Under the pieces are notes generated by a model. The model did not search any database, was not told where the DNA came from, and saw nothing but the letters and a program-made list of their open reading frames with translations. From assembly GCA_015478725.1 (NCBI GenBank), contig JADMIG010000025.1, positions 1 to 33,442 on the forward strand: a stretch of DNA of 33,442 nucleotides, in the 5' to 3' direction. The stretch is from Chloroflexota bacterium (GTDB lineage: Bacteria > Chloroflexota > Limnocylindria > Limnocylindrales > CSP1-4). Positions 5,670-32,378 of the stretch are shown one piece after another. The number at the start of each line of letters is the position of its first letter. The first letter of the stretch is position 1. Position numbers and translations under genes: made by a program.

Positions 5670-7232
5670 GTGGACCGGCGATCCGGACGAGAGGACCTGA
5701 CGACGATCCCTTCCAGATCCATCGCGATTGCCGCCTCGCATCGCCTCGCCCTGGCGACGAACGCGGCGCGCCTGACCAGGCTGGCGGCGCTCGCGATCGC
5801 CGCCGCATCGGGCGTGCTCGTGGCGGTCTGGCCTACGTCGGCGGCCGTCATCGCGGCGCTGGTCGTCGGCCTTGGGCTCGTCGCCATGGGACGCCGTGTC
5901 GTGGGCCTGTTCCACGGCGGGCTCATCGCCATCCTCGTGGGCTATGCCTTCCTCGGCAAGGGATTCGCGTACCTCGGTGTCCCGCCCCTCTATGTCGGGG
6001 AGATGGTCCTCGCCCTCGGGCTCGTCTCGATCCTCGTGTCATTCGGTCGGGCGCGGTTCGGAGTCCTCCACGGTCTCCTCGCGCTGTTCATGATCTGGGG
6101 GGCCATTCGGACGATCCCGTATATCGGCCTGTACGGGATCGACGCCCTCCGCGACGCCGTGACATGGGCCTATGGGCTGTTCGCGATCGCCGTATCCGTC
6201 ACGGTCCGTCAAGAGCACTTCCACCGGCTGAGGGCCGGGTACCAACGGATGATCCCCGTGTTCCTCGTCTGGGTCCCTCTGGCAGCGGGACTGACGCTCC
6301 TGCTCGGGGATGCCCTGCCAAAGGCGCCCGGTTCGAACGTCGCCCTCGTCGTGTTCAAGGCCGGCGACACGGCCGTCCACCTCACCGCCATCGGGGCGTT
6401 CATCCTCCTCGGGCTCTATGAACGGGCCGGAAGCGCGGCCGGGATCCGTGACCTTGCCCTGTGGAGTGCCTGGTTCGTGGAATGCGCTCTGACGGCCGCC
6501 CTGAATCGAGCTGCCATGGTCACCCTCGCGGCGACGTCCGCCGTCCTCCTGTTCGTGCGAGCATCCAGCCGCTGGGTGGCACTCGTCTTCGTCGGCGTCA
6601 CGTTGCTGGCGCTCACCGTCCTCGTCGACCCGCAGGTCGATGTCGGCGGGACCCGGGCCATCTCGGTCGGCCAGCTCGTCGACAACCTGACGAGTGTCTT
6701 CAGCAACCAGTCGAGCGCCGCGAACCAGGCCACGAAGGAGTGGCGCGTCCAGTGGTGGGACAAGATCGTGAGCTACACGGTCAACGGACCGTACTTCTGG
6801 ACCGGGAAAGGGTTCGGGATCAATCTGGCTAACGCGGACGGCTTCCAGGTGACGGCCGACGGGTCCCTCAGAGCTCCGCATAGCACGCACCTGGAGATCC
6901 TCGCCCGGGCCGGCGTGCCGGGCCTGGCGCTGTGGCTCGCGTTCCAGATCGCGTTCGGGATCAGCCTCCTGCGGGCGGCCTTCAGGGCCATCCGGGCCGC
7001 GCCACTATGGGTGCCCATCCTCGGCTGGATCTTCGTGTACTGGGCGGCCGCCCTCATCGATGGCTCGTTCGACGTGTATCTCGGCAGCCCGCAGGGTGGC
7101 ATCTGGTTCTGGAGCGTGATCGGCCTCGGCCTGGCCGCCGTCCGCCTATCGCGCGCGCCGGAGCGCCCGGAGGCAGCGTCGCCCATCCGACTCGGACGCG
7201 CCGCCCGGCGGTCGACCCACCCGGCCTCCTGA
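5670..7232 (+). CDS. O-antigen ligase/polymerase-like membrane protein
   Basis: A 520-residue integral membrane protein with about 11-13 hydrophobic segments, the first near residue 38 (RLAALAIAAASGVLVAVW). A large hydrophilic loop around residues 325-415 ends in RAPHSTHLEILARAGVPGL. The H-S-x-x-L-E-x-x-x-x-x-G-x-x-G-L signature in the last periplasmic loop is the hallmark of the Wzy_C/O-antigen ligase superfamily. These enzymes polymerise repeat units or ligate glycans on the outer side of the membrane using lipid-linked donors. The GTG at 5670 is the earliest start free of the divergent gene. Its stop overlaps the next ATG in TGATG, so the pair is translationally coupled. Polymerase and ligase cannot be told apart here. 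With a Wzx-type flippase in the same locus, a Wzy polymerase role is the more natural reading. Confidence 0.85.
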   Translation: MDRRSGREDLTTIPSRSIAIAASHRLALATNAARLTRLAALAIAAASGVLVAVWPTSAAVIAALVVGLGLVAMGRRVVGLFHGGLIAILVGYAFLGKGFAYLGVPPLYVGEMVLALGLVSILVSFGRARFGVLHGLLALFMIWGAIRTIPYIGLYGIDALRDAVTWAYGLFAIAVSVTVRQEHFHRLRAGYQRMIPVFLVWVPLAAGLTLLLGDALPKAPGSNVALVVFKAGDTAVHLTAIGAFILLGLYERAGSAAGIRDLALWSAWFVECALTAALNRAAMVTLAATSAVLLFVRASSRWVALVFVGVTLLALTVLVDPQVDVGGTRAISVGQLVDNLTSVFSNQSSAANQATKEWRVQWWDKIVSYTVNGPYFWTGKGFGINLANADGFQVTADGSLRAPHSTHLEILARAGVPGLALWLAFQIAFGISLLRAAFRAIRAAPLWVPILGWIFVYWAAALIDGSFDVYLGSPQGGIWFWSVIGLGLAAVRLSRAPERPEAASPIRLGRAARRSTHPAS

Positions 7233-13661: not shown

Positions 13662-13688
13662 ATGAATACGCGAGGGTTCGCCCGGTGA
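13662..13688 (+). other. Possible 8-residue leader peptide coupled to the next gene
   Basis: ATG at 13662 opens a short frame, MNTRGFAR, ending in TGA at 13686-13688. GAGGTGA at 13653-13659 is a good ribosome binding site just upstream. The stop overlaps the GTG start (13685) of the cytidylyltransferase-like gene in GTGA, the same junction used between real genes in this window. The downstream start also has its own GAGGG at 13672-13676. The peptide could serve only to deliver ribosomes. It could also be chance. Confidence 0.35.
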
Positions 13689-14512
13689 AGGTCGTGCTCT
13701 TCTGCGGCGGGTCCGGGATCCGTCTCCCCGACGGCGGGGAGACGCTCCCCAAGCCGATGGTGAGGATCGGCGATCGCCCCCTTCTCTGGCACGTGATGCG
13801 CTACTACGCCCACTGGGGCATGCGCGACTTCATCCTCTGCCTGGGCGCCCAGGGGGGCCTCATCAAGGACTACTTCCTGTCCTACGACGAGACGCTCACG
13901 AACGACTTCACGCTCTCCTCCGGGGGCCGGCGGATCGATCTCCATGGCACCGACATCCAGGACTGGCGGATCGCCTTCGCGGACACGGGCCGGCGAGCGG
14001 AGGTCGGGGCGCGCCTGCTGGCCGTTCGCGATCATCTGGACGGGGAGTCCGTGTTCTGCGCGAACTACGGCGACATCGTGACGGACGCGCCGCTCCCCGA
14101 GCTGGTCGCGGATTTCCTGGCTCGAGACAAGGTCGCGGCGCTCCTGTCCGTGCGTCCCAACTCCTCGTTCCACGTCGTGGAGGCCGAGAGTGGCGGCATC
14201 GTGACCGCGATCCGGGACGTCGCCCACGCCGATCTCTGGGCCAATGGTGGCTACTATCTCTTCCGCGACTCGATCTTCGACTACATCCACGGCTCCGAGG
14301 ACCTCGTCGCGGGCCCGTTCCATCGCCTCATCGCCGAGGACCAGCTCATCGCCTATCGCCACGACGGGTTCCTGACGTCCCTCGACACGCTCAAGGATCT
14401 GCAGAACCTGGAGCGTCTCCACGAGAACGGACGACCTCCGTGGGCCGTCTGGCTCGAGGACACGCTTGGCGGATCGGTCGTTGCCGGGGCCCCGGATCAG
14501 GCGCCTCGGTGA
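13685..14512 (+). CDS. Sugar-1-phosphate cytidylyltransferase-like nucleotidyltransferase (RfbF family)
   Basis: A 275-residue protein of the glucose-1-phosphate cytidylyltransferase group. The N-terminus MKVVLFCGGSGIRLPDGG followed by LPKPMVRIGDRPLLWHVMRYY is the nucleotide-binding loop and the KPM motif. CANYGDIVTDAPL provides the metal-binding Asp. GGYYLFRDSIFDYI and HDGFLTSLDTLKD are C-terminal family markers. The family normally makes CDP-glucose, the entry point to CDP-3,6-dideoxyhexoses. Here the usual GGxGTR loop reads GGSGIR, and no clear CDP-glucose 4,6-dehydratase is present, so the nucleotide and sugar are uncertain. GTG at 13685 fits the conserved N-terminus. A paralogue lies at 21910-22695. 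The next gene, an NAD-dependent SDR, is convergent and only eight bases away. Confidence 0.88.
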   Translation: MKVVLFCGGSGIRLPDGGETLPKPMVRIGDRPLLWHVMRYYAHWGMRDFILCLGAQGGLIKDYFLSYDETLTNDFTLSSGGRRIDLHGTDIQDWRIAFADTGRRAEVGARLLAVRDHLDGESVFCANYGDIVTDAPLPELVADFLARDKVAALLSVRPNSSFHVVEAESGGIVTAIRDVAHADLWANGGYYLFRDSIFDYIHGSEDLVAGPFHRLIAEDQLIAYRHDGFLTSLDTLKDLQNLERLHENGRPPWAVWLEDTLGGSVVAGAPDQAPR

Positions 14513-15730: not shown

Positions 15731-16807
15731 ATGCGCATCGCCCGCTATCACCCTCGTGCCGCGATCGGCGATGGCGGCCTGACGTTCGCCGTCCGCCGCT
15801 GGTCGGTCGCGCTTGCGGATCTCGGCGTCACGACGCTGGTCGTCCACGCCGGCGGCCCGGCCCCGGACGACACGGACCGGATCGCCTGGCGAGCGGTTCG
15901 CCATGTCCCGACGCCGTTCGGGCCCGTCCCGGTTGGCCTTCGAGACGCATTCCAAGGGGTCGACCTCGTCGTCCTGCATTCGGGCTGGACCCTGGCGAAC
16001 CACGTCGCGGCGCACTCGGCGCGTGCGGCGGGGATCCCATACCTGCTGGAGCCGCGAGGTGCGTACGATCCACACATCGTCGCCCGGCACCGGCGGCGCA
16101 AGGCTGTCTGGTGGTCGGTCGTCGAGCGCCGGATCGTGGAGGGAGCCCTCGGGATCCACGTCTTCTTCGAGGAGGAGCGAGTCCACCTCGCCGCGCTCGG
16201 ACACCGTGGCCCCGTCGTCGTTGCCCCGAATGGCATCGACGCACCGCCGGCGGCCACGTGGCAGGGAGGCGCCGGCGGGTCGATCCTGTGGTTCGGCCGG
16301 CTCGATCTCGATCACAAGGGACTCGACCTGATCGTTCGCGGCGTCGCCTCCCTGCGCCGGAACAACCGTCCGCACGTCCGCCTCCATGGCGCGGGCGGCG
16401 CCCGCCGGCGGGCGGAGCTCGAGGCGCTGGTCCGGCAGCTGGACGTCGCCGATCAGGTCGAGATCCTCGGACCCGTCTACGGCGAGGACAAGGAACGGGC
16501 GGTCGCGTCGTGCGCGGCGTTCGTGTACCCGTCGAGGTGGGAGGCATTCGGCTTCGCGCCGGTCGAGGCCGTCGTCCGTGGGGCCCCCCTGCTCGCGACG
16601 CCATACCCGCTCGCCCGACACCTTGCCGACCGGCACGGCGCGCTCGTCGTGGACGCCACGCCGGCGGGGCTCGCCGAGGGACTCGAGCGGATCATGGCGA
16701 CCGGGTCGTCCGCCCTGGGCGAGGTCGGCCGGACGGTCGCCGTCGAGGATTTCCGGTGGTCCGACGTCGCCACCCGGTGGCTCCGCCAGGTCGAGGCGCT
16801 CGTGTGA
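15731..16807 (+). CDS. Family 4 glycosyltransferase
   Basis: A 358-residue GT-B enzyme. MRIARYHPRAAIGDGGLTFA opens the acceptor domain, then HSGWTLANHVAAHSARAAG and LEPRGAYDPHI. The donor domain has LWFGRLDLDHKGLDLIVRG and YPSRWEAFGFAPVEAVVRGA with the nucleotide-sugar Glu pair. These motifs match the GT4 at 1877-3004 one for one, so the two genes are paralogues placed about 13 kb apart on opposite strands. I prefer ATG 15731 over GTG 15710 because family members begin at this strand. Its TGA overlaps the GTG of the kinase fusion gene (GTGA), suggesting coupled translation. Sugar unknown. Confidence 0.9.
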   Translation: MRIARYHPRAAIGDGGLTFAVRRWSVALADLGVTTLVVHAGGPAPDDTDRIAWRAVRHVPTPFGPVPVGLRDAFQGVDLVVLHSGWTLANHVAAHSARAAGIPYLLEPRGAYDPHIVARHRRRKAVWWSVVERRIVEGALGIHVFFEEERVHLAALGHRGPVVVAPNGIDAPPAATWQGGAGGSILWFGRLDLDHKGLDLIVRGVASLRRNNRPHVRLHGAGGARRRAELEALVRQLDVADQVEILGPVYGEDKERAVASCAAFVYPSRWEAFGFAPVEAVVRGAPLLATPYPLARHLADRHGALVVDATPAGLAEGLERIMATGSSALGEVGRTVAVEDFRWSDVATRWLRQVEALV

Positions 16808-18408
16808 GCATCGCGGGCGTTCCTCCCGATCGCATCCCGTGCGGCCGCTGGACGCTGATCGTCGGGCCGGACGGCACCGGGAAGTCGACCCTCGCCGCGT
16901 CCCTGATGACGGATGCGGCGCCGCTGGGGAGCGTCAGGTACCACCAGCGGTTCGGCGTCCTACCGCGCTCGGCGACGAGCCGGATCGCACCGGCGGATCC
17001 GCATCTCGCACGCCCATATGGACGGTGGCTATCGGCGGCCAAGGTCGTCTACCTGTACGTCGATTTCGTTGTCGGCTGGCTCGTCCGGGTCCTTCCGGCC
17101 CGGCGCCGCGGTGGCTGGGTCGTCATGGAGCGCGGCTGGGCCGACCTCGCCGTCGACCCGCGGCGGTATCGATTGGACCGCGTCGACCGACTCGTCCGCA
17201 TCCTCGGCCGGCTGGCACCACGGCCGGACGTGATCCTTCTCCTCGACGTGGGGGCCGAGATCGCCCATGACCGACAGGGGGAGCTCTCCGTGACGGAGAT
17301 CGAGCGCCAGCGACAGGCCTGGCTCACGCTGCTCCGGGACGACCCTCGTGCGCGGATCATCGATGCGGGCCTGACGGCCGCGGTCGTGGCCCGGCAGGCC
17401 CGCGAGGCGATATCCGGTGCCACGTCGGCCGCGGGATCGTCCGCGCCGGGCCCGGACGGGGAGTCCCGCTCGCGGTGGGTGAACCTGCCGCCTGGATCCA
17501 CGGCGAGGTGGGTGATTCAGGCTTCGTCCGGCCGTGTCGCGGCCGCAGGCCTCTCGGTCTACCAGCCGGTCACGCTCCGTGGACTCATCGGCTGGATGGG
17601 TGCCCGGGTCATCGCGCGGACCGGCGCGCTGGCGCTGCTCCCGGCGACGGGATCGCCCGTCGAGGCGATCCGGCTCGACGGAGCCATCCCATCCGGCTCC
17701 CTCGTCGCCGTGAGTCGGGGAACGACCGCCGGACGGGCGGTGGCGCTGATCCTCGACTCGCGAGGTCGAGCACATGCGGTGGCCAAGCTGCGCAGCGACC
17801 CGGAGGGAATGGCCGGTCTGGCCCACGAAGCACACGCCCTCGAGCGGGCGCGTCCGCACCTGCCGCCGGGCCTGGCAGCCCCCAGGCTGCTCGCCGAGGC
17901 GCCCGGGTACCTCGTGTTCGAGGCCATCGATTGGCGCCTGCGGCCCCGACCGTGGAGGTTGCCCCCGCAGGTCGCCGCCGATCTCGGGACCTTCTATCTC
18001 CATGCCGGCGGTGGCCCGGACGGGGGCCCGGCCCACGGTGACTTCAGCCCGTGGAATCTCCTCCGGACCCGGTCCGGCTGGATGCTCATCGACTGGGCGG
18101 ACGCGATCGAGGCAGCGCCGCCGTTCGCCGACCTCATCCACTTCGTCGTCCAGTCGCACGCGCTCCTGGGTCGACCGTCCACCGCGGCGGTCGTGGCGGG
18201 CTTCGATGGACAGGGCTGGGTCGGTGCCGCCCTCCGGGCACACGCCGCCGCCGCGGCCCTGGACTACCGAGATGCCCGGTCTCGGCTGATCGCCTACCTG
18301 GAAGCGTCCCTGCCGGAGATGGACGCCGGATCGGACGATGGGCGTCGCGGCGCCCGTGGGCGTCAGCGGCTCCTCGCGGCGCTCGCGAAGTCCGCGGTGG
18401 GCACCTGA
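16804..18408 (+). CDS. Fusion: thymidylate-kinase-like P-loop domain plus APH-type phosphotransferase
   Basis: A 534-residue two-domain protein. Residues ~15-200 are a P-loop kinase related to thymidylate kinase: Walker A GPDGTGKST at 21-29, VVMERGWADLAVDPRRY near 106-122 and VILLLDVGAE at 143-152. After a flexible linker (~200-235), residues ~290-500 form an aminoglycoside-phosphotransferase-like kinase. That domain has K328 in AVAKLR, E342 in HEAHALER, the catalytic loop HGDFSPWN at 411-418 and the metal Asp D430 in IDWADA. Both active sites look intact. The gene overlaps a glycosyltransferase before it and a uronate-dehydrogenase-like gene after it, so a job in sugar or lipid-carrier phosphorylation is likely; no substrate can be read. 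A real dTMP kinase is unlikely, because the lid region and length differ and the context is polysaccharide. The start is GTG 16804. Confidence 0.82.
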   Translation: MSIAGVPPDRIPCGRWTLIVGPDGTGKSTLAASLMTDAAPLGSVRYHQRFGVLPRSATSRIAPADPHLARPYGRWLSAAKVVYLYVDFVVGWLVRVLPARRRGGWVVMERGWADLAVDPRRYRLDRVDRLVRILGRLAPRPDVILLLDVGAEIAHDRQGELSVTEIERQRQAWLTLLRDDPRARIIDAGLTAAVVARQAREAISGATSAAGSSAPGPDGESRSRWVNLPPGSTARWVIQASSGRVAAAGLSVYQPVTLRGLIGWMGARVIARTGALALLPATGSPVEAIRLDGAIPSGSLVAVSRGTTAGRAVALILDSRGRAHAVAKLRSDPEGMAGLAHEAHALERARPHLPPGLAAPRLLAEAPGYLVFEAIDWRLRPRPWRLPPQVAADLGTFYLHAGGGPDGGPAHGDFSPWNLLRTRSGWMLIDWADAIEAAPPFADLIHFVVQSHALLGRPSTAAVVAGFDGQGWVGAALRAHAAAAALDYRDARSRLIAYLEASLPEMDAGSDDGRRGARGRQRLLAALAKSAVGT

Positions 18409-19178
18409 TGCCTGCGCGGCTGCGAGTGGCGGTGACCGGGGCGGAAGGGCTCATCGGCGGCGTGGTCCGGAGATACCTCGGCGACCGCTACGACCTCCGT
18501 CCGCTCACCCGCACGCGGGCCGCGTTCGCGAGCACCGTCGTCGACCTCCAGGACCTCGATGCCCTCACCGCAGCGCTCCGCGGTTCGGACGCGGTGGTCC
18601 ACCTTGCGGCGGCGTCCGGCGTCGCCGATGCGTGGGCCGACGTCCTCGCTTCGAATCTGGTCGGCGCGTACAACCTGTTCGAGGCGGTCCGTAGCGCCGG
18701 GGTCCCGCGGGTCGTCTTCGCCTCCTCCAACCACGTCGTCGGGGGCTACGAGCGCGAGGGCGCCCCCGCCATCTACGCGGGTCGCCTGGAGACGCTGGTC
18801 GACGAGCGATCGATGCCACGACCCGATTCCCTCTATGGCGTCTCGAAGGGCTTCGGCGAACTCCTCGGCCGCTACCATAGCGACCGCTTTGGACTGCGGG
18901 TGATCTGCCTGCGGATCGGATCCGTCCTCCCGTCAGACGATCCGCGTGCCCCGGCGCCGTCGTCGGCCCCGCCGGAGATCGCGGCTGTCTGGCCCGCCCG
19001 GATTCGCGCGACATGGCTCTCCCATCGCGACTGCGCGGAGCTCATCGCGCGGGGGCTGGAGGCGGACGTACGCTTCGCGATCGCCTACGGTGTCTCGGAC
19101 AATCCGGGTCGGTTCTGGGACCTGGAGAGCGCCCGTCAAACCCTGGGCTTCGCGCCTCGTGATCGGCCGCCGGACTGA
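18408..19178 (+). CDS. Uronate-dehydrogenase-like SDR
   Basis: A 256-residue NAD-dependent SDR. It has GAEGLIG at 11-17, HLAAASG near 65, FASSNHVVG at 104-112, and Y143-x3-K147 (YGVSK). The rest, LRIGS, TWLSHRDCAELIARGL and IAYGVSDNPGRFWDLESAR, closely follows bacterial uronate dehydrogenase, which oxidises galacturonate or glucuronate to the aldaric acid lactone. Length is also right (~265). Related proteins of unknown substrate exist, so a nucleotide-sugar or other hexose substrate is possible. Its ATG overlaps the TGA of the kinase fusion gene, and it ends 23 bases before the convergent flippase gene. A catabolic-type uronate enzyme inside a biosynthetic locus is unusual. Confidence 0.85.
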   Translation: MPARLRVAVTGAEGLIGGVVRRYLGDRYDLRPLTRTRAAFASTVVDLQDLDALTAALRGSDAVVHLAAASGVADAWADVLASNLVGAYNLFEAVRSAGVPRVVFASSNHVVGGYEREGAPAIYAGRLETLVDERSMPRPDSLYGVSKGFGELLGRYHSDRFGLRVICLRIGSVLPSDDPRAPAPSSAPPEIAAVWPARIRATWLSHRDCAELIARGLEADVRFAIAYGVSDNPGRFWDLESARQTLGFAPRDRPPD

Positions 19179-19201: not shown

Positions 19202-20524
19202 TCAGCGCGGCGCCGGCGCGTCGGAGGCTGCGGTTTCGGCCCGGGTCCGGTAGAGGTGCGCTTCGACCAGGTACGCTCTTAGAAAAGCGGCGGCACCGAT
19301 GAACGACGCGGCGGCCAGGCCCCATGCAGCACCCCACGCGCCCGCCACCAGCGCGCCGACCACGGCGTCTGCCAGGCTCACGATCGATGTGAAGAGGGTC
19401 ACCCGAAGACTGCGGCGAGCCGCGGCGAGCGCGCGCAGGCCCATGGACGGTCCGGCTGTCAGCATGTAGCCGAGCGAGCCGATGGCCAAGGGAAGCACGA
19501 GCGCGTGTGCCGGTAGCCACGACGTCTTGAGGAGCACGGTTCCGACGTCGTCAGGGATGGCCAGCACGAATCCCGCCCAGGCCACGATCGCTGCAGACAG
19601 GCCCAGGGACATCACCGCGGCCGCTCGATCGAGTCGATGCACGGAGTGGCCGAGGGCGCGAACGCCCTCTGGCACCGACACGATGTTGATGCCCATGAAG
19701 AACACCTGCACTGGAGCGAGCAGCAGCTGGCCGGCGCGCAGGGCGCCGAGGGCAGCAAGGCCCGACACGGCACCCACGCCGTAGGCGACGAGCTGGCCCG
19801 CTGTCAGCCGGCCCATCGCCTCGAGGAGGAACCGCGGCCCGATGTCGATCTGTTCCCGCCACCACCCCAGGGCACGGTCCGGGCGCGGCACGACGCCTGA
19901 CTGCCAGGCACCGACCACGGCGGCGACGGTCGCTCCGCCGCCCCAGGCGAGCACCGGCCAGGCGATGCTGCGATCGCCGGACGCGATGACGACCGCAAGT
20001 GCCGGGAACTCGAAGAGTGCCCAGATGGCGTCGTTGATGAACGCCGATCGGCCGCGTCCTGCCGCGAAGAAGACGGATCGCCATGCATCCTGGAGGAGGA
20101 GGCCGGGCAGCGTGATGCCGAGCCCCACGAACACGACGCCCACTCCATCGCCGATGAGGAGACCGCACGCGAGCAGAAGGCTGCCGGCCACGACACCGGC
20201 GCCCAGTGCGGTCCCGGTCGCGGCGCCGGCGGCGCGTCGGAAGGCGGCTTCCGGAGCGCGCCCGTAGCGGATCACGAGCGGATCCATCGGGTATGCTCGC
20301 GAGACGCTGACCGCGAAGTAGTACGCTGCGAGCGCGAGGCTGAACGCCCCGAAGTCGGCCAGGGTGACGGTCCGGACGACGAGGAAACTGAGGCCGAAGT
20401 TCGTCAGGCTCGAGAACGACTGGTCGGCGAGGCCCCAGCCGGCTCGGCGAAGGGCGGCGATCGGAAGCCGGTTGAGCGGCGCAGGCGGCGGCGAACCACC
20501 GGGCGTGTCGGCGGGCGTTAGCAT
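19202..20524 (-). CDS. Wzx-type polysaccharide flippase
   Basis: A 440-residue membrane protein with roughly 12-14 hydrophobic segments. The first, LADQSFSSLTNFGLSFLVVR near residues 34-53, has the amphipathic opening typical of Wzx/MATE-like MOP-family exporters. FFMGINIVSVPEGVRALGHS and SLGYMLTAGPSMGLRALAA resemble the second half of such proteins. The family moves undecaprenyl-linked glycan units across the cytoplasmic membrane. I chose ATG 20524. The frame is open to 21910 but that part only mirrors the methyltransferase gene on the other strand. It is a single minus-strand gene divergent from the methyltransferase operon. It would work with the Wzy-like protein at 5670-7232. Confidence 0.85.
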   Translation of the reverse strand: MLTPADTPGGSPPPAPLNRLPIAALRRAGWGLADQSFSSLTNFGLSFLVVRTVTLADFGAFSLALAAYYFAVSVSRAYPMDPLVIRYGRAPEAAFRRAAGAATGTALGAGVVAGSLLLACGLLIGDGVGVVFVGLGITLPGLLLQDAWRSVFFAAGRGRSAFINDAIWALFEFPALAVVIASGDRSIAWPVLAWGGGATVAAVVGAWQSGVVPRPDRALGWWREQIDIGPRFLLEAMGRLTAGQLVAYGVGAVSGLAALGALRAGQLLLAPVQVFFMGINIVSVPEGVRALGHSVHRLDRAAAVMSLGLSAAIVAWAGFVLAIPDDVGTVLLKTSWLPAHALVLPLAIGSLGYMLTAGPSMGLRALAAARRSLRVTLFTSIVSLADAVVGALVAGAWGAAWGLAAASFIGAAAFLRAYLVEAHLYRTRAETAASDAPAPR

Positions 20525-20629: not shown

Positions 20630-21913
20630 ATGACGAATCCGCCCGCGGCCCCCGGCGCCAACCCGTCCGATCCGATCGACCGATCGTGCCGGTTCTGCGG
20701 CGCGCCTCTTGAGCATGTCGTCATCGATCTCGGGATGTCGCCCCTCTGCGAGAGCTTCCTTGCCGCCGATGAGCTTGAGCGCATGGAGCCCTTCTATCCT
20801 CTCCGTGTCCGCATCTGCGGCGTGTGCCTTCTCGTTCAGCTTCCGGCGTACGTGAGCCCGGATGCGATCTTCACGGAATATGCCTACTTCTCGTCGTTCT
20901 CGGACAGCTGGGTCGAGCACGCGAGACGGTACACCGCCGCGATGGTCGAGCGTCTGGACCTCGGGGAGAGGGGCTTCGTCGTCGAACTGGGCAGCAATGA
21001 TGGCTACCTGCTCCAGCACTTCGTCCATCGCGGGATCCGCGTCCTGGGGATCGACCCTGCGTTGAATGTCGCGGTGTCGGCGGAGGAGCGCGGCGTTCGC
21101 ACGCGAACCGCCTTCTTCGGCGCGGCGGTCGCCCGCGAGGTCCGCGCTGACGAGGGAGCGGCGGACCTGGTGATCGGCAACAACGTCCTGGCCCAGGTGC
21201 CCGATCTCAACGACTTCGTCGCCGGCGTCGTCGATCTCCTCGCACCGTCCGGACTCGTGTCGATCGAGGTCCCCCATCTCATGCGGCTCATCTCGGGCAA
21301 CCAGTTCGACACGATCTACCACGAGCACTTCTCGTATTTCTCGCTGGCCACGGTCCGGCGCATCTTCGAGGCGCACGGGCTGGCGGTCGTGGATGTGGAG
21401 GAGCTGCCATCCCACGGCGGCTCCCTCCGGATCTTCGGCCGGCATGCCGGCGCCGGAGCCGAGGCTTCGGATCGGGTGGAAGCGGTGCTGCGAGATGAGG
21501 CTGCGGCCGGGCTGGGCGAAGTCGCCACGTATCAGGCGTTCGGAACCCGTGTCGAGGCCATCAAACGTGACCTTCTCGGGTTCCTCATCGACGCTCGACG
21601 CGACGGTCGGACGGTGGTCGGTTACGGCGCCCCTGGCAAGGCGAACACGCTCCTCAACTATTGCGGGATCCGAACCGACCTGGTTCAGTACACCGTGGAC
21701 CGGAACACCTACAAGCAGGGTCGGTTCACGCCCGGCACGCACCTGCCGATCCACCACCCGGATCGCATCGCAGAGACGCGGCCGGATCATGTCTGGATCC
21801 TGCCGTGGAATCTCGGCCGCGAGATCCGGGCGCAGCTCTCCTACATCGGCGACTGGGGTGGCCGCTTCCTCACCGCGATCCCGGATGTCAGGATGGCTGA
21901 GGCCGGTCAATGA
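20630..21913 (+). CDS. NDP-sugar C-methyltransferase
   Basis: A 427-residue enzyme. The zinc-binding N-terminus has C20-x2-C23 and C63-x2-C66. The S-adenosylmethionine domain has VVELGSNDGYLLQHF near 117-131. The active-site motif YHEH lies at 230-233 within FDTIYHEHFSYFS. The C-terminal domain carries GYGAPGKANTLLNYCGI and YTVDRNTYKQGRFTPG. This is the full signature of C-methyltransferases such as those acting on NDP-4-keto-6-deoxyhexoses to give branched-chain sugars. It starts a five-gene coupled run; its TGA overlaps the next ATG in ATGA. The genes that follow (cytidylyltransferase-like, deacetylase) suggest action on a nucleotide-activated amino- or deoxysugar. The substrate position (C-3 or C-5) is not readable. 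Confidence 0.93.
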   Translation: MTNPPAAPGANPSDPIDRSCRFCGAPLEHVVIDLGMSPLCESFLAADELERMEPFYPLRVRICGVCLLVQLPAYVSPDAIFTEYAYFSSFSDSWVEHARRYTAAMVERLDLGERGFVVELGSNDGYLLQHFVHRGIRVLGIDPALNVAVSAEERGVRTRTAFFGAAVAREVRADEGAADLVIGNNVLAQVPDLNDFVAGVVDLLAPSGLVSIEVPHLMRLISGNQFDTIYHEHFSYFSLATVRRIFEAHGLAVVDVEELPSHGGSLRIFGRHAGAGAEASDRVEAVLRDEAAAGLGEVATYQAFGTRVEAIKRDLLGFLIDARRDGRTVVGYGAPGKANTLLNYCGIRTDLVQYTVDRNTYKQGRFTPGTHLPIHHPDRIAETRPDHVWILPWNLGREIRAQLSYIGDWGGRFLTAIPDVRMAEAGQ

Positions 21914-22695
21914 AGGTCGTCATCTTCTGTGGTGGGCAGGGCGTGCGGCTGCGCGAGTACGGCCCCGTCCCCAAGCCGATGATCCCGATCGGTGCCCGAC
22001 CCATCCTGTGGCACGTGATGCGCTACTACGCCCACTTCGGTCACACCGAGTTCATCCTCTGCCTCGGACACGGCGCCGGCGCCATCAAGGAGTACTTCCT
22101 TCACTACAAGGAAGCGCTGTCGAATGACTTCGTGCTGACCGACGGCGGTCGTTCGCTTGAGCTGGCCGGCAGGGACATCGAGGACTGGCGGATCACCTTC
22201 GTCGACACCGGCCTGCATGCCACGATCGGTGAACGGCTCCTCGCCGTCCGACGGTACGTGGCAGACGAAGAGGTGTTCCTCGCCACGTACGGCGATTGCC
22301 TCACGGATGCGCCGCTGGACGCCCTGATCCGTGACTTCATGGCCGGGGAGGCCGTCGCCGGCCTGCTCTCGGTGAAGCCGCCCGGTTTCTTCGACCTGGT
22401 GCATCAGGGTCCGGATGGATCGGTGACGGCGATCCGGAACGTCGGTGACGGCGGGATCCGGATGAACGGCGGCTTCTTTCTGCTCCGGCGGTCCATCTTC
22501 GATCACCTCAGGCCGGGGGAGGAGCTCGTGGTGGAGGGTTTCCAGCGCCTGATCGATGAACGTCGGTTGATCGCCTATCCGTGGGACGGATTCTGGGCCA
22601 CCATGGACACGCTCAGCCAGCATCGCGAACTCGAAGAGCTGAACGAGGCCGGACGCCCACCGTGGGCCGTCTGGACCACCAGCGGAGAACGCTGA
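21910..22695 (+). CDS. Sugar-1-phosphate cytidylyltransferase-like nucleotidyltransferase (RfbF family)
   Basis: A 261-residue protein, the usual length of glucose-1-phosphate cytidylyltransferase. MKVVIFCGGQGVRLREYG and VPKPMIPIGARPILWHVMRYY hold the nucleotide loop and KPM motif. ATYGDCLTDAPL carries the metal Asp, and NGGFFLLRRSIFDHL with WDGFWATMDTLSQ closes the family fold. It is a clear paralogue of 13685-14512 but keeps an acidic residue pattern nearer to the classic family. Its ATG overlaps the methyltransferase stop and its TGA overlaps the ATG of the deacetylase. It could activate a sugar-1-phosphate for the methyltransferase encoded just before it. CTP use is inferred from the family. 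Confidence 0.9.
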   Translation: MKVVIFCGGQGVRLREYGPVPKPMIPIGARPILWHVMRYYAHFGHTEFILCLGHGAGAIKEYFLHYKEALSNDFVLTDGGRSLELAGRDIEDWRITFVDTGLHATIGERLLAVRRYVADEEVFLATYGDCLTDAPLDALIRDFMAGEAVAGLLSVKPPGFFDLVHQGPDGSVTAIRNVGDGGIRMNGGFFLLRRSIFDHLRPGEELVVEGFQRLIDERRLIAYPWDGFWATMDTLSQHRELEELNEAGRPPWAVWTTSGER

Positions 22696-23408: not shown

Positions 23409-24290
23409 TTGGAGGAAGCCAAGGCAACGAAGGAGGTCCGGACGAACACATCCGCCGCTGACCGCACAGATCTCTGGCTCCCGCTGTTGCGCAGGCTTAC
23501 CACGACCTCGCCGCGTTGGCTCGTCTGGAAGAACGCCGAGTCGGCGTTCACCGGGACCGGCGATATCGACGCCGCCGCGGCGGCGTCCGACTGGCCGACC
23601 ATCGAGGCAGAGTTCTGCCGCTGGGCAATGGGGCACGGGGTTGGTCCCGTCGTCACCTGTCGACACATCCCCGGCGGCCTGAATCTCATCGCCGTGGCAC
23701 CGGGGCACGCGACCTTCCTCGAGATGGGGGTGAAGGCCCGTCGACTGTGGCGCGGTTCGACCCTCTTCGTCCTCGACGATCTGATGCCCATGGCGACGCT
23801 CGATCCTCGCGGCTTCAGGCGTCTCCGTCCCGGCGCAGAGGGTCTCTTCAAGCTGCTCCTCAACGGCATGCGGCGTGACGGACACCCGAACGAGCGGGCG
23901 CTCCACGAGAAGAACGTTCGGGAGCTCCTGGGCGTTGACCCGGAGGGGGTGCGATCGGCGGCGGGCCTCTTTGGTCCGGCCGCGGGTGCCGTCATCGCCC
24001 TGGCGCGCGCGTCGGCTCAAGGGACCTGGGATCGGCGAGCGGCGCTTGCCATCGAGGGCTGGGCCGTGTTGCGAGCCTTTCGCGAGCCCGACGTCCTGGC
24101 GGCGCGGGTCCGATTCCGGGTCCGGGGACGTCACGGGTGTCCGGTCGTCGAGGCCATCCTGGAGGGAGGACGGCACATCCCCGGCGATCTCGAGGCGTGG
24201 CTCCGGCGAGTTGCTGTGGACCACGTCGTCCACGGGAGCGGACCCGATGGATCTCTGCCAGATGGTTCGGATGGGCACACCGTTCGGTGA
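23409..24290 (+). CDS. Unrecognised protein with a possible nucleotidyltransferase-fold motif
   Basis: About 293 residues if it starts at TTG 23409. No family is recognised with confidence. The segment LVWKNAESAFTGTGDIDAAA, followed by ASDWPTIEAEF, resembles the loop of minimal nucleotidyltransferase folds where two acidic residues (G-D-I-D) bind metal. Later parts include VVTCRHIPGGLNLIAVAP, FLEMGVKARRLWRGSTLFVL and RLRPGAEGLFKLLLNGMRR, a clearly protein-like and well-ordered sequence. The start is doubtful. A perfect AAGGAGGT at 23430-23437 lies inside the frame, but no ATG, GTG or TTG follows at proper spacing. It begins 42 bases after the deacetylase and its TGA overlaps the ATG of the cyclase, so it belongs to the same operon. 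Confidence 0.7.
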   Translation: MEEAKATKEVRTNTSAADRTDLWLPLLRRLTTTSPRWLVWKNAESAFTGTGDIDAAAAASDWPTIEAEFCRWAMGHGVGPVVTCRHIPGGLNLIAVAPGHATFLEMGVKARRLWRGSTLFVLDDLMPMATLDPRGFRRLRPGAEGLFKLLLNGMRRDGHPNERALHEKNVRELLGVDPEGVRSAAGLFGPAAGAVIALARASAQGTWDRRAALAIEGWAVLRAFREPDVLAARVRFRVRGRHGCPVVEAILEGGRHIPGDLEAWLRRVAVDHVVHGSGPDGSLPDGSDGHTVR

Positions 24291-25217
24291 TGCGGGTCAT
24301 CGACGTCTCGCTTCCGCTCTCGAGCCGCCTGACGGTTTTTAGCGGCAACACGGCCCTCTCCGTGCACGATGTCCTTCGGCGCGACCGCGGGGACGCGACC
24401 AATGTGTCCGAGTTACGGATCGGCACGCACGCGGGAACGCATGTCGACGCGCCGTCCCACCTGCTCGACGACGCACCGGGCGCTGACCGACTGCCGCTGG
24501 ACGAAACTGATCGGCGAGGCTCTCGTGGTCGACTGCACGGCCGTGCCGCGCGCGATCGGTGCGCGAGACCTCGAGGCGCTGGGCCTTCCGCCCGGGCTCC
24601 GACGGCTCCTGCTCCGCACCCGGAACTCGGCGTTCTGGCGCAACCCGGCGGCCGAGTATCCCTCGGACTACGTCGGGCTCGCCCACGATGGCGCGCTCTG
24701 GCTGATCCGCCACGGCGTCCGGCTGGTCGGGATCGATGGGCTGTCGATCGAGCCATATCGGACGCCCGGCCGCCCGACGCACGTCGCGCTCCTCGAGGCC
24801 GGGATGGTGATCGTCGAGGGCCTCGACCTTGATGGCGTACCACCGGGTCGCTACACCCTCGTCTGTCTCCCGCTGAAGCTGGTCGATGGCGACGGCAGCC
24901 CCGCCCGGGCCGTGCTGCTCGCGGCCGACCAAGGCGATCCCGCGCTTGAAGGTCCGGCCAACGAAGTCGTGGGACTCATCAGCGCCGATGTCTCTCGACT
25001 CAATCGCGCCTCGTGGGAGCCTCCTCGCGTGCACGCCGCCGTTCGTCGCGGCGGCGCCTTCCCCGCAGCTCCAACTCGCCACGCAGGAAGCGGAAGCGCT
25101 CAAGGAATGGCCCGGGGTCCCGCAGAGACTCCAGACCGTGGGCCGTCCGGCGCCGCGGACGGGCCGCCAACAAAGCTGTGGGTAGCGAGATGCGGCCCTC
25201 GCGAACACCTCGGATGA
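24290..25217 (+). pseudogene. Kynurenine-formamidase-like cyclase, frameshifted
   Basis: The ATG at 24290 begins MRVIDVSLPLSSRLTVFSGN, then LRIGTHAGTHVDAPSHLLDD, the HxGTHxDxP metal-binding signature of the cyclase/kynurenine formamidase family. About 70 residues in, the frame is lost. The sequence GACGAAACTGATCGGCGAG at ~24500-24518 would read DELIGE with one A fewer. From 24507 the other frame continues LIGEALVVDCTAVPRAIGA, RLLLRTRNSAFW, PSDYVGLAHDGALWLI, VGIDGLSIEPY and YTLVCLPLKLVDGDGSPAR, the rest of the family. The frame then runs to 25217, far past the usual end, over the facing ATP-grasp gene. A single-base sequencing error or a real pseudogene would look alike. The late stop points toward decay, but the error explanation is not excluded. 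Confidence 0.8.
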
Positions 25218-26124
25218 GGCTGCGCAGGTCGCCCTCCATCCAACGATAGAAGACACCCGGCCGACCACGGACCGCCTCAGGCGCGCGGTCCTCCAGCAAG
25301 GCGCAGTAGTCTGCAAGAAGGTCGACGCCGGACGCAGCGGCGAGCGCAAGCGTAGCGTGGATGCGCGGGTTGAGGTCGAGCAAGTAGGGGCCCGCGAGGT
25401 CAGCATGGAAGAGCCCGTCGTGTTCGGCAAGCAGCCGCCCGAAACGCTCCTCGAGTCGGTAGTCTGGCGTCACAGTTTCGGCAGCCGCCACTGTCCCCGC
25501 CGGGAAGGGCCAGATTCGCAGGTAACGAAAATGCACGGCAGCGACCAATCGCCCTCGCCAGGTGAGCCCGAGTAATCCATGCAGCGGGTCATTCAGGAAG
25601 GGCTGCACGATGAGTCGCCCGGGCAAGTCTGCTACGCGAGCGAGTTGCTCGGGGCGGTCCGCACGCTCAGCCAGGAATCGCTTGACAGCGGGCTTGACGA
25701 TCACCGGGTAGGTCAGCTCTGACTCCGCCGCCCGAAGCGCTGCATAGGAATCGAAGACGCGGCTGGGCGGGATCATCAGACCCGCCAGGGTTGCCTGCTG
25801 CGCGGTGTAGAGCTTATCCATGAAACGCGACTCAGGGCGCTCGAGTGCGATCGCGGCGATGTCGCTTGCCGGCAGTACCGTGAGATAGTTGTGGCTGGCC
25901 AGTTCGGCGCGGACTGCCGCCGCGTAACCAGCTGGGTCCACGTCGGCCGAAGGAACAGCGACTCGACGCAGGCAGTAGCGCGACGCGGCCGCCAGGGAGG
26001 CCTTCCCGCTGACCGTCACGGCCGCTCGGTAACCGGCAGCGGCCAGACCCCGGACCGCCACCACCGCCGCCCGTGACTGATCCGGACCCGAGACCAGGAC
26101 CCACTTCGGGTGTGGGTTAGACAA
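25000..26124 (-). CDS. ATP-grasp ligase-like enzyme
   Basis: A 374-residue protein of the ATP-grasp superfamily. The N-terminal domain WVLVSGPDQSRAAVVAVRGL leads to VLPASDIAAIAL. The central nucleotide-binding part has YPVIVKPAVKRF and RLIVQPFLNDPLHG. The metal-binding C-part has PYLLDLNPRIHATLALAAAS, where DLNPR stands for the common E-x-NPR. It resembles carbamoyl-phosphate-synthase-like ATP-grasp proteins that join a carboxylate to an amine or thiol through an acyl-phosphate. I chose TTG 26124 because AGGAGGA ends five bases upstream, although the frame is open to 26262. The Arg-rich last ~20 residues overlap the cyclase frame. Near a PIG-L deacetylase it might acylate an exposed amine; this is inference. 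Confidence 0.85.
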   Translation of the reverse strand: MSNPHPKWVLVSGPDQSRAAVVAVRGLAAAGYRAAVTVSGKASLAAASRYCLRRVAVPSADVDPAGYAAAVRAELASHNYLTVLPASDIAAIALERPESRFMDKLYTAQQATLAGLMIPPSRVFDSYAALRAAESELTYPVIVKPAVKRFLAERADRPEQLARVADLPGRLIVQPFLNDPLHGLLGLTWRGRLVAAVHFRYLRIWPFPAGTVAAAETVTPDYRLEERFGRLLAEHDGLFHADLAGPYLLDLNPRIHATLALAAASGVDLLADYCALLEDRAPEAVRGRPGVFYRWMEGDLRSLIRGVREGRISLPTALLAARPRRRTAHGLESLRDPGPFLERFRFLRGELELRGRRRRDERRRAREEAPTRRD

Positions 26125-28082: not shown

Positions 28083-28775
28083 TTAAAGAGGTCGATCGTC
28101 CAGGTCTGCCGGCCGGTCCACGTCGCGGATCGTCCAGCCGTCCGGGTCGATCGTTCGCCACCGCTGACCGTCCACCACGGCGGTCGCAAGTCGCCCGAGG
28201 AGGCGGTGCACTCGCCGATCGTCCTCGGCGAACGCCGATCGCGCAGCGGCCCTCGCTGCGCCGAGGCGGAGCGCGCACGGCAGGAGGGCGGTTGGCTCAT
28301 CCACGGTGGCGGCCGCAACCGCTGTCGGCGACCCGAGGCGCGCACAGGTCGCGTCCGGATCCGCCTCGAGCGCGTCGACGAGCAGTCGCAACACGTCCGG
28401 GAGCATCCACGGCATGTCGCCTCCCGCGACGACGACGATCGATTCAGCGGTGCCGCCGAGCGCCTCGAGCCCGGCGAGGATGCCGGCGACCGGCCCATCG
28501 AACGCCTGCGCATCCCGGACGACGAGAACGTTCGGAGGCAGGGCGTCGGGGATCGGCCCCTCAGGTGAGATGACGACGGCCACGAGGTCGACGACGCTCG
28601 CGACTGCCTCCGCGGCGTGGGTGAGGACGGTCCTTCCATCGGGCATCGATGCGGCCAGCTTGTCGCGACCGAATCGCCGCGATCGCCCGCCCGCGAGGAC
28701 GATCCCCGCCACGGCACGCTGCGCCGCGCCGCGCCGGTCGCGCCGGTCGCGCCGCACCGTCGCATCCGGCGTCAC
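28083..28775 (-). CDS. mobA: Molybdenum cofactor guanylyltransferase-like protein
   Basis: A 230-residue nucleotidyltransferase. GIVLAGGRSRRFGRDKL near residues 24-40 is the GTP-binding loop of MobA. VVAGGDMPWMLPDVLR carries the metal Asp. The protein resembles MobA, which adds GMP to molybdopterin for enzymes of the DMSO-reductase family, including formate dehydrogenase. The N-terminal ~20 residues are basic and not conserved, so the true start may be later, but GTG 28775 overlaps the TGA of selB in GTGA and is the natural coupled start. Placement behind selA and selB suggests joint supply of selenocysteine and guanylated cofactor for one enzyme. A closely related MobA-like CTP or GTP transferase (MocA type) cannot be excluded. 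Confidence 0.8.
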   Translation of the reverse strand: MTPDATVRRDRRDRRGAAQRAVAGIVLAGGRSRRFGRDKLAASMPDGRTVLTHAAEAVASVVDLVAVVISPEGPIPDALPPNVLVVRDAQAFDGPVAGILAGLEALGGTAESIVVVAGGDMPWMLPDVLRLLVDALEADPDATCARLGSPTAVAAATVDEPTALLPCALRLGAARAAARSAFAEDDRRVHRLLGRLATAVVDGQRWRTIDPDGWTIRDVDRPADLDDRPL

Positions 28776-30697
28776 CGCGGCGCTCTCGGCCCCGCGACAT
28801 GTCCGGCCGGCGTGCGCCGCAGGACGCCGCGTCGATCGAGCTCCTCGAGGATCGCCATGACGTACTTTCGGCTTGTCCCCGTGGCGTCGCGGAAGCTCGC
28901 CGGCGTCACCGGCCCAGCCGTCGAAAGGCGGAGCGCCGTCGCCCCGAGCTCGGCGAACGTCGTGGCTGCGTAGGCGAGGTCGTCGTCGAGACGGACGATC
29001 CGGCCTGATCGTTCGAGCAGCCGCGCCGCCTCCGGCGTCGAACCCGACGCGCGCAACGCGTCGCCGAGGGCCGGAGGAGCCGGCACCGCGAGGATCCGCT
29101 CGAGTCGAGCCATCGACGCGACCATCTCCGGACTCGGGCCACGGTCGGCCGACGTGCCTGCGGCCAGGAGACGATCCCCGCTGCGGGTGAGCCGACCTTC
29201 CGCCACGAGCGAATCGACGACGGCGCTGGAGATCTCGAGGGCCGCCCGATGATCCACCGTCACCCGTCGACGGATCGCCCGGGCGAGACCGGCCCGAAGC
29301 TCGGAGCTCGAGACACCGGGATCGCCGCCGGGGTGGCTGCTCGCCTCGATCGCCGCGAGGAGGTCCGCCTGGATCGCCACGTCTAGGTCGGGAGCGAGCC
29401 GGTGGCCGGCGAGGACCCGCCCGGGGACCGTCCGCCCGGCGTGGGGATCGAGCTCGCCCGGGACCTCCAGCAGGACACCGTGAAGATCGAGTCTTGCCGC
29501 GACGTTGTTGGAGACGCCGGCCTCCGATGGGAGGAGCGCCACGAGTCGCTCGGCGGTGACCCTCCGCCGCGAGGCCCCGATGGGTGGCTGCGGATCGAGG
29601 ATGACGCCTCCGGCCACGGCGCCGACCGGTGACGGACGGCGAAGGACGAAGGCGTCGCCGATCGCGGCCGCGATCGGCCGGTCCAGGCGGAGACGGACGA
29701 CCCGTCGCCCATCGGGCAGGTCCGCGAGATCACGTCGCCCGCGGCCCACCCGCGCCTCGGTGGACGCGGTCCCGAGGTGGAGCCGCGTGACGGAGCCCGG
29801 ATCGGGTGGCCAGTTCGGCCGCCGCGGTGCGCGATCGTCGAGTGCCGCCGGGCGGCGGAGGACGGCGAGGATCTCCTGCGTCGCGACGACCGCGCGGTCC
29901 ATCGTGAGCACGTCACCGCGGACCGGCGGCGGATCCATGACGCCGGCGAGGTTCATGGCGACGCGCCCACCACCCGGGGCCGACGCCACCGTCGCCCCGT
30001 GGACCTGGATCTCCCGCGCCCGGACCGTGCGGCCGCCGGGCTCGAGGCGGAGGACGTCGCCACGGACGAGGGGACCACCGCGGAGCGATCCGGTGACCAC
30101 CGTTCCGCGGCCCTTGACGCTGAACACGCGATCCACGGCGAGCCGCGGTGATCGTCCCGTTCCGGGCTTCACCGCGGCTCGGTCCCGGGCACGGTCGCGA
30201 AGCTCGCTCAGGCGGGCACGGAGCTCGTCGATCCCGTCTCCACGGAGCGAGGCGACCGGCACGATCGGCGAGCCGGCAAGCATGGTCCTCCCGAGGATCC
30301 GGCCGACGTCGGCGACGACCGCGGCGACCCGCTCCGCATCGACGACGTCGATCTTGGTGACCGCGACGACCCCGTTCGCGATGCCGAGCGCGTCGAGGAG
30401 CTCGAGGTGCTCGAGCGTCTGCGCCCGAGGTCCGTCATCCGCCGCGACCACGAGGAGGGCGGCATCGATCTCGCCGGCTCCGACGAGCATGTTGCCGATG
30501 AGGCGGTCGTGGCCGGGCACATCGACGAAGTCGAGCTCGTCGCCGTCGGGCAGCCGGAGGTGGGCGTACCCGACGTCGATCGTCATCCCCCGCCGACGCT
30601 CCTCGGGCAGCCGGTCGGCATCGATGCCCGTCAGGGCTCGGAGGAGGGACGTCTTGCCGTGGTCGATGTGGCCGGCCGTCCCGACGACGAGGGTCAT
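28772..30697 (-). CDS. selB: Selenocysteine-specific elongation factor SelB
   Basis: A 641-residue GTPase. G1 is GTAGHIDHGKTSLL (GHIDHGKT at 9-16). The switch region is RGMTIDVGYAHL, G3 DVPGHDRLIGNML, and G4 TKID, as in EF-Tu-like factors. Domains II and III follow, with VFSVKGRGTVVTG. The C-terminal winged-helix region that binds the SECIS hairpin ends with FRDATGTSRKYVMAILEELD, a strong SelB marker. SelB delivers selenocysteyl-tRNA to a UGA codon. Length is normal (~600-650). Its ATG overlaps the TGA of selA (ATGA) and its TGA overlaps the GTG of mobA. Confidence 0.97.
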   Translation of the reverse strand: MTLVVGTAGHIDHGKTSLLRALTGIDADRLPEERRRGMTIDVGYAHLRLPDGDELDFVDVPGHDRLIGNMLVGAGEIDAALLVVAADDGPRAQTLEHLELLDALGIANGVVAVTKIDVVDAERVAAVVADVGRILGRTMLAGSPIVPVASLRGDGIDELRARLSELRDRARDRAAVKPGTGRSPRLAVDRVFSVKGRGTVVTGSLRGGPLVRGDVLRLEPGGRTVRAREIQVHGATVASAPGGGRVAMNLAGVMDPPPVRGDVLTMDRAVVATQEILAVLRRPAALDDRAPRRPNWPPDPGSVTRLHLGTASTEARVGRGRRDLADLPDGRRVVRLRLDRPIAAAIGDAFVLRRPSPVGAVAGGVILDPQPPIGASRRRVTAERLVALLPSEAGVSNNVAARLDLHGVLLEVPGELDPHAGRTVPGRVLAGHRLAPDLDVAIQADLLAAIEASSHPGGDPGVSSSELRAGLARAIRRRVTVDHRAALEISSAVVDSLVAEGRLTRSGDRLLAAGTSADRGPSPEMVASMARLERILAVPAPPALGDALRASGSTPEAARLLERSGRIVRLDDDLAYAATTFAELGATALRLSTAGPVTPASFRDATGTSRKYVMAILEELDRRGVLRRTPAGHVAGPRAPR

Positions 30698-32178: not shown

Positions 32179-32201
32179 GCGGTCTTCTGCTGCAGGCGGT
32201 C

Positions 32202-32298
32202 TGGCGGGAGCGCATGGGAGTCGAACCCACCGCGTCACGTCGAGCGTGGCGCCACCGGTGTTGAAGACCGGGGGACCCACCGGGACCCCTCCGCTCCC
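32202..32298 (-). tRNA. selC: tRNA-Sec (anticodon TCA)
   Basis: A 97-base gene with encoded CCA. From the 5' end it has an acceptor arm GGGAGCG(G), then AG. A six-pair D stem (GGGTCC/GGGTCC, with two G-T pairs) is closed by a CGGT loop. The anticodon stem CCGGT/ACCGG encloses loop CTTCAAC, with anticodon TCA at 32264-32262. The variable arm is 24 bases and forms a stem with one mismatch. The T arm is GTGGG-TTCGACT-CCCAT. The six-pair D stem, CGGT loop and long variable arm are the marks of selenocysteine tRNA, and match the Escherichia coli layout position by position. The eighth acceptor pair is G opposite G instead of a normal pair. The discriminator base is G. Confidence 0.96.
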
Positions 32299-32304
32299 GA
32301 GTCG

Positions 32305-32310
32305 ATGGTA
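32305..32310 (-). promoter_or_regulatory. Possible -10 element for tRNA-Sec/selA
   Basis: TACCAT on the minus strand fits TANNNT and ends seven bases before the mature 5' end of the tRNA, the spacing expected for a start at or near that base. No good -35 element is visible. Confidence 0.4.
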
Positions 32311-32366
32311 GCGCGACGGCCCGTGGCCGGTCGTCGGGGCGGCGCCGGGTCATCGGCCGTCCGTCC

Positions 32367-32372
32367 TATCAT
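32367..32372 (+). promoter_or_regulatory. Probable -10 element giving a leaderless selD transcript
   Basis: TATCAT, one base off TATAAT, ends six bases before the GTG start at 32379. That distance puts the transcription start at the start codon itself, the arrangement of leaderless genes. The region just before the GTG has no clear ribosome binding site at normal spacing, only GGCGGG touching it. Confidence 0.5.
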
Positions 32373-32378
32373 CGGCGG

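Follow-up and report, generated by a model that had tools for sequence, protein, structure and literature searches.

A thymidylate-kinase-like domain fused to an APH-like kinase belongs to a recurrent pair in bacterial glycan loci

The stretch of Chloroflexota DNA analyzed here (33,442 nucleotides, hereafter the window) encodes a protein, P0001, that is a real fusion of two phosphotransferase domains, both with intact motifs. One half resembles thymidylate kinase (Tmk) and the other the APH kinases. This is no isolated or chance arrangement: homologous fusions are present in Chloroflexota and Actinomycetota, and Tmk-like and APH-like domains occur as neighbors or fused in Pseudomonadota and other groups. 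What is observed is the folds and intact motifs of both halves, the conservation of the pair, its recurrent fusion and its glycan neighborhood. On this basis P0001 may well be a bifunctional cytoplasmic kinase of Wzx-type polysaccharide assembly, one form of a recurrent module with nucleotidyltransferase-like (NTase-like), Tmk-like and APH-like parts; we hold this reading with about even confidence. The gene and its motifs are as follows.

16804..18408, + strand: Tmk-like/APH-like kinase fusion P0001, 534 aa, GTG start (from translation, AlphaFold and family alignment)
16864..16890, + strand: Walker A motif GPDGTGKST, P0001 residues 21-29
17128..17169, + strand: ERGWADLAVDPRRY, P0001 residues 109-122, corresponding to the Tmk DR motif, after which a family-specific DPRRYR segment replaces AYQG
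17425..17472, + strand: interdomain linker of P0001, residues 208-223, of low confidence in the AlphaFold model
18034..18057, + strand: APH catalytic loop HGDFSPWN, P0001 residues 411-418
18088..18105, + strand: APH metal-binding segment IDWADA, P0001 residues 429-434

A first-pass annotation of this DNA had placed both motif sites, apparently intact, in a 534-aa protein, and the translation gives exactly those residues. AlphaFold modeled the whole of P0001 with a pLDDT of 83.8, as two well-folded domains joined by a loose linker: a P-loop domain of thymidylate-kinase fold at residues ~12-208 and a domain of APH/choline-kinase fold at ~230-534. The gene's GTG start codon overlaps the stop of the glycosyltransferase gene before it in GTGA at 16804-16807, and TGATG at 18406-18410 combines its own stop with the ATG of the gene that follows; these overlaps on either side make translational coupling with both neighbors plausible, as the annotation had suggested. 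Because direct Pfam matches were weak, the domain calls needed structure and relatives.

For the first half, the Pfam profile Thymidylate_kin (PF02223) scored P0001 at 13.1 bits against a cut-off of 27, which is sub-threshold, and a search of NCBIfam gave the protein no match. The AlphaFold model of this half aligned with the dTMP kinase 5xai at Z 19.8 (rmsd 2.6, 174 aligned residues, 20% identity). P0001 shares with dTMP kinase (PF02223, TIGR00041) the fold, the GPDGxGKS/T P-loop, the Arg after the central strand and the lid Arg; it differs in its sub-threshold score, in carrying DPRRYR rather than AYQG, in lying in a glycan locus and in having a canonical tmk in the genome besides. That canonical gene (G000:C4:35996-36556) scored 140 bits, above the cut-off, in a search in which P0001 reached 7.4 bits, and its product has AYQG after the central Arg. 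Within the family, the thymine-recognition AYQG was not found at the position after the DR motif, which is occupied by DPxRY or other residues (VDPRRYR in P0001); the sole AYQ string among family members, in L042, lies at another place. P0001 also departs from most relatives in the R-K-x-E lid motif, with Gln in place of their Lys; G022 has Val there.

Because the genome has a separate canonical tmk and P0001 has another motif in place of the thymine-recognition segment, the Tmk half is not a housekeeping enzyme; judged from sequence, the first half of P0001 is not the cell's dTMP kinase. The first-pass annotation had held that a match to a true dTMP kinase only would undo its reading; the true enzyme proved to be the separate gene on C4. 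Several other candidates were rejected. Three weak Thymidylate_kin matches at G000:C1:513-518 kb lie, by translation, inside Ffh- and Smc-like genes and are no relatives, a PADLOC 'mad8' match of 20.9 bits covers the P-loop only and is a generic P-loop match, and the best PDB profile matches, to RecA and ABC proteins, also cover only the P-loop.

The second half of P0001 had no direct Pfam-A APH match, the PF01636 gathering cut-off not being reached; the same Pfam family matches eight of ten family members at 0.001 or better. Folded alone, this half gave an AlphaFold model with a pTM of 0.84, which aligned with corramycin phosphotransferase 8agy (Z 14.8, rmsd 3.4, 220 aligned residues), choline kinase (Z 13.5) and fructosamine-3-kinase (Z 13.4). 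Foldseek alone ranked RIO kinases and macrolide/aminoglycoside phosphotransferases, and a structural search among viral proteins returned general protein kinases only. The fold, HGDxxPWN, DW(E/A) and the N-lobe Lys and Glu are shared with the APH/choline-kinase superfamily (PF01636). The P0001 family is nevertheless separate, with an N-terminal 'LYxP' extension, and P0001 itself is distinguished by scores below the Pfam thresholds, by a compact C-lobe and by its fused P-loop kinase. In the P0001 clade, ~50 residues between the hinge and the catalytic loop are missing from the APH half.

Some APH relatives depart from this pattern. One in Nanoarchaeota (L064:7500-8711) and one in Jorgensenbacteria (L066:10552-11733) have KRE for HGD and lack PWN, with DWE kept; by their motifs, both look catalytically changed. 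Three other members (L076:4670-6418, L077:5986-7620 and L098:6277-7764) carry an extra, Rossmann-looking N-terminal domain of ~180 aa that has no Pfam match, and in L091 the Rossmann-looking domain is encoded by a gene of its own, which lies between those for Tmk and APH. A methyltransferase in front of some APH members, suspected from a layout like that of WbdD, found no profile support.

Searching species genomes with full-length P0001 gave no match, and the family was opened only by a three-sequence P-loop alignment; the gene maps come from a home-made gene caller and are approximate. Tmk-APH fusions were present in two Actinomycetota MAGs (L057, 522 aa; L062, 480 aa) and in four loci of the Actinomycetota sample (L083, L084, L085 and L086; 511, 514, 502 and 518 aa). 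Triple NTase-Tmk-APH fusions were seen in L059, L065, L082, G045 and G792, the last from Pseudomonadota, and in G023 (L045:246-4046) a single 1,266-aa frame encodes a Wzx-type flippase together with NTase-like, Tmk-like and APH-like domains. Elsewhere the Tmk-like and APH-like proteins are encoded by adjacent separate genes (G186, G361, L070, G162, G283, G710, G682, G540, G815, G780 and G933) or, in L069, by genes 4 kb apart on opposite strands. P0001 and the L057 protein share ~40% identity over the Tmk half and ~45% over the APH half, and GPDGxGK, HGDxxPWN and DW are invariant in ten fused proteins, P0001 included.

Across phyla the Tmk-like domain nearly always precedes the APH-like domain. 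The first-pass annotation had proposed looking for this domain order in other genomes and had held that its reading would fail if homologues with this order were always unlinked to glycan genes; the order recurs, and the relatives sit in glycan loci. On Leisingera plasmids, which were left out of the search models, the genes run GT4, flippase, phosphotransferase, EpsG, NTase-Tmk, GT, with the APH gene first. One such plasmid-borne polysaccharide locus (L094; Leisingera NZ_CP035421.1 15619-34161), from a cultured marine biofilm isolate, has the pair unfused, with a flippase and EpsG next to it. In Leisingera sp. NJS204 the phosphotransferase gene is ETW24_RS22595 and the NTase-Tmk gene is ETW24_RS24370. 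Members of each family also occur without the other nearby: no APH partner was found near the Tmk-like members of G022, G008, L061 and L063, and no Tmk domain was found for the APH members beside Wzx in G243, G443 and G274. The two activities are therefore not strictly obligatory together.

To quantify the association, we counted how often the families lie close together. Among 400 Chloroflexota genomes the APH family is present in 13, with a Tmk-family match within ~12 kb in six of these; of the co-located genomes other than the window's, two supplied sequences to both search models and a third to one. In Actinomycetota, 27 of 266 genomes carry the APH family and 14 of the 27 the Tmk family; the two lie within 9 kb in 12 genomes, and in one open frame in seven. 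Four of 224 Pseudomonadota genomes have the APH family, three of them with a Tmk domain within 1.5 kb; in the fourth, a divergent NTase/P-loop gene adjoins. Assuming random placement and ignoring shared ancestry between genomes, co-location is 5/12 against 0.09 expected in Chloroflexota without the window's genome (P ~5e-9), 10 against 0.09 expected in Actinomycetota without the two model-source genomes (P ~3e-20), and has P ~4e-8 in Pseudomonadota. On the APH tree, P0001 groups with eight other compact APH domains at 100/99 support; of the nine, eight are fused. The fused state changes at least four times on this tree (starred branches) and at least twice on the poorly resolved Tmk tree, changes that may be losses as well as gains.

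The presence of a Wzy_C gene marks the window's locus as a polysaccharide locus. The genes that bear on the fusion are these.

5670..7232, + strand: O-antigen polymerase/ligase (Wzy_C)
13685..14512, + strand: glucose-1-phosphate cytidylyltransferase-like
15731..16807, + strand: GT4 glycosyltransferase, with a homologue before or beside the fusion in L057 and L083-L086
18408..19178, + strand: uronate-dehydrogenase-like SDR, an inconstant partner
19202..20524, - strand: Wzx-type oligosaccharide flippase, 440 aa, start inferred
21910..22695, + strand: glucose-1-phosphate cytidylyltransferase-like
23409..24290, + strand: nucleotidyltransferase-like partner of the WKN...GDxD family, a nucleotidyltransferase by motif only
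25000..26064, - strand: ATP-grasp enzyme, a recurrent partner (L057, L085, L061, L041 and L040)

The earlier assignment of the fusion to a glycan operon agrees with these neighborhoods, since the fusion is tied to glycan genes both in the window and in its relatives. Its labels for individual genes also held: among proteins of solved structure, uronate dehydrogenases come closest to 18408..19178 (E 1e-29 or better), and both genes labeled 'cytidylyltransferase-like' have glucose-1-phosphate cytidylyltransferase as a match (E 2e-46 and 7e-45). The annotation had also suggested that the fusion might phosphorylate a sugar or lipid carrier in two steps, for instance to supply the cytidylyltransferase-like enzymes; those enzymes and the dehydrogenase-like gene are inconstant among relatives' loci. 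The recurrent partners of the pair are the Wzx flippase and GT4 enzymes, each found in most loci read at sufficient length, and the NTase-like protein. In L083, L084 and L085 a homologue of 23409-24290 lies beside the fusion, in L057 it is close by, and in L061 it is fused to a Tmk-like domain. We call the NTase-like families nucleotidyltransferases on the strength of an invariant D-x-D, to which one of the two adds a third Asp; neither PDB nor Pfam gave a trustworthy match, and no profile of a known nucleotidyltransferase matched them.

A cassette of GT4, NTase-like, Tmk/APH and either SDR or ATP-grasp genes recurs in L057, L083, L084 and L085, and L086 has the GT4 and NTase genes; in the window all the cassette parts are present but spread out. 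Elsewhere, module parts are fused to a sugar-1-phosphate transferase (G008), to GT4 (L064, L068 and L038) and to a flippase and GT9 (G272). The window fits the module: the Tmk-like and APH-like domains are fused, the locus is of Wzx type, and there is a putative nucleotidyltransferase, so named by motif only. Two further features of the window were recorded. A putative cyclase gene, kynurenine-formamidase-like, at 24320-24920 on the + strand (homologue L085:3354-3995) is split over two reading frames near 24500, and is therefore frameshifted or mis-sequenced. The right flank, 28083-33440, holds SelB-, SelA- and SelD-like selenocysteine genes beside a molybdenum-cofactor-type nucleotidyltransferase.

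How might such a bifunctional kinase act? The APH half would use ATP to phosphorylate a hydroxyl group on a sugar, a polyol or a lipid-linked glycan. The Tmk-like half, with an acceptor segment that is no longer of the dTMP-kinase type, would perform a second ATP-dependent transfer, most simply onto this first phosphate or onto a closely related phosphorylated intermediate. The NTase-like partner would use or complete the kinase product, and a phosphorylated or phosphate-linked building block would pass to the glycosyltransferases and the flippase. A more specific version, which we regard as speculative and rather unlikely, is a novel two-step route in which the APH kinase phosphorylates a hydroxyl of the sugar or lipid-linked glycan and the repurposed Tmk-fold enzyme, with the NTase-like partner, extends this to a diphosphate; the outcome would be a new type of glycan, phosphorylated or phosphate-bridged, shared by several bacterial phyla and perhaps by some archaea. 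In AmgK/MurU- and LicA/LicC-type pairs, an APH-like kinase and a nucleotidyltransferase activate a sugar or an alcohol; these pairs have no P-loop kinase and their nucleotidyltransferases are of another fold, which by description sets them apart from P0001.

The main rival to the two-transfer model is nucleotide recycling. In this view an NDP-activated alcohol or sugar would be the joint product of the APH half and the NTase-like partner, and the Tmk-like half would act as an NMP kinase, re-phosphorylating UMP or CMP that phosphoglycosyltransferases release. The NMP-kinase fold of the Tmk-like domain is consistent with this, as are the recurrence of an NTase-like partner and the G008 fusion, in which the transferase is of a UMP-releasing kind. 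However, a charged family motif replaces the base-recognition segment of Tmk, and general CMP/UMP kinases already serve the cell; we consider recycling doubtful.

Slightly less probable again is end-capping or chain-length control, in which phosphorylation of a lipid-linked glycan would stop or license polymerization or export. The solved precedent is WbdD of Escherichia coli O9a, a bifunctional protein of a polysaccharide locus whose protein-kinase-like domain acts on lipid-linked O-polysaccharide (PMC3482155). The flippase fused to or adjoining module parts and the extra N-terminal domain of some APH members point the same way. Yet WbdD has a coiled coil and works in an ABC-transporter system, neither of which is seen here; its kinase is of a different family, and its partner domain is a methyltransferase, whereas that of P0001 is a P-loop kinase. 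P0001 is not a member of the WbdD family. Moreover, no methyltransferase profile matches the extra N-terminal domain, which P0001 lacks, and end-capping leaves the Tmk half unexplained.

It is improbable that the APH half is a resistance enzyme, or a protein-phosphorylating regulator of the assembly machinery, to which the Tmk-like domain is joined incidentally. Antibiotic phosphotransferases and RIO kinases are among its nearest solved relatives, but a resistance gene fits poorly with consistent linkage to glycan genes and to a Tmk-like domain in several phyla. Finally, the Tmk fold might suggest an ordinary dTMP kinase that became attached to a kinase by chance or through an assembly error. 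This is very improbable: the genome has its canonical tmk at another place, MAGs and long contigs of other phyla show the same fusion, and the frame is open throughout with conserved motifs.

The first-pass annotation had not recognized the fusion as a named system, and we found no name for the Tmk-like/APH-like pair in Pfam, NCBIfam or the papers searched (subscription papers were outside the scope), an absence that is not proof of novelty. Where annotation was seen, the recurrent pair is called only 'hypothetical protein' or 'phosphotransferase'. The unfused form is present on plasmids of Leisingera strains that are in culture, which makes its function directly testable. The fusion and its recurrent partners tie the pair to flippase-dependent glycan assembly, and suggest phosphorylation of the glycan or an unknown activation step. 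Overall, the pair looks like a real, still unnamed step in the building of surface-sugar coats.
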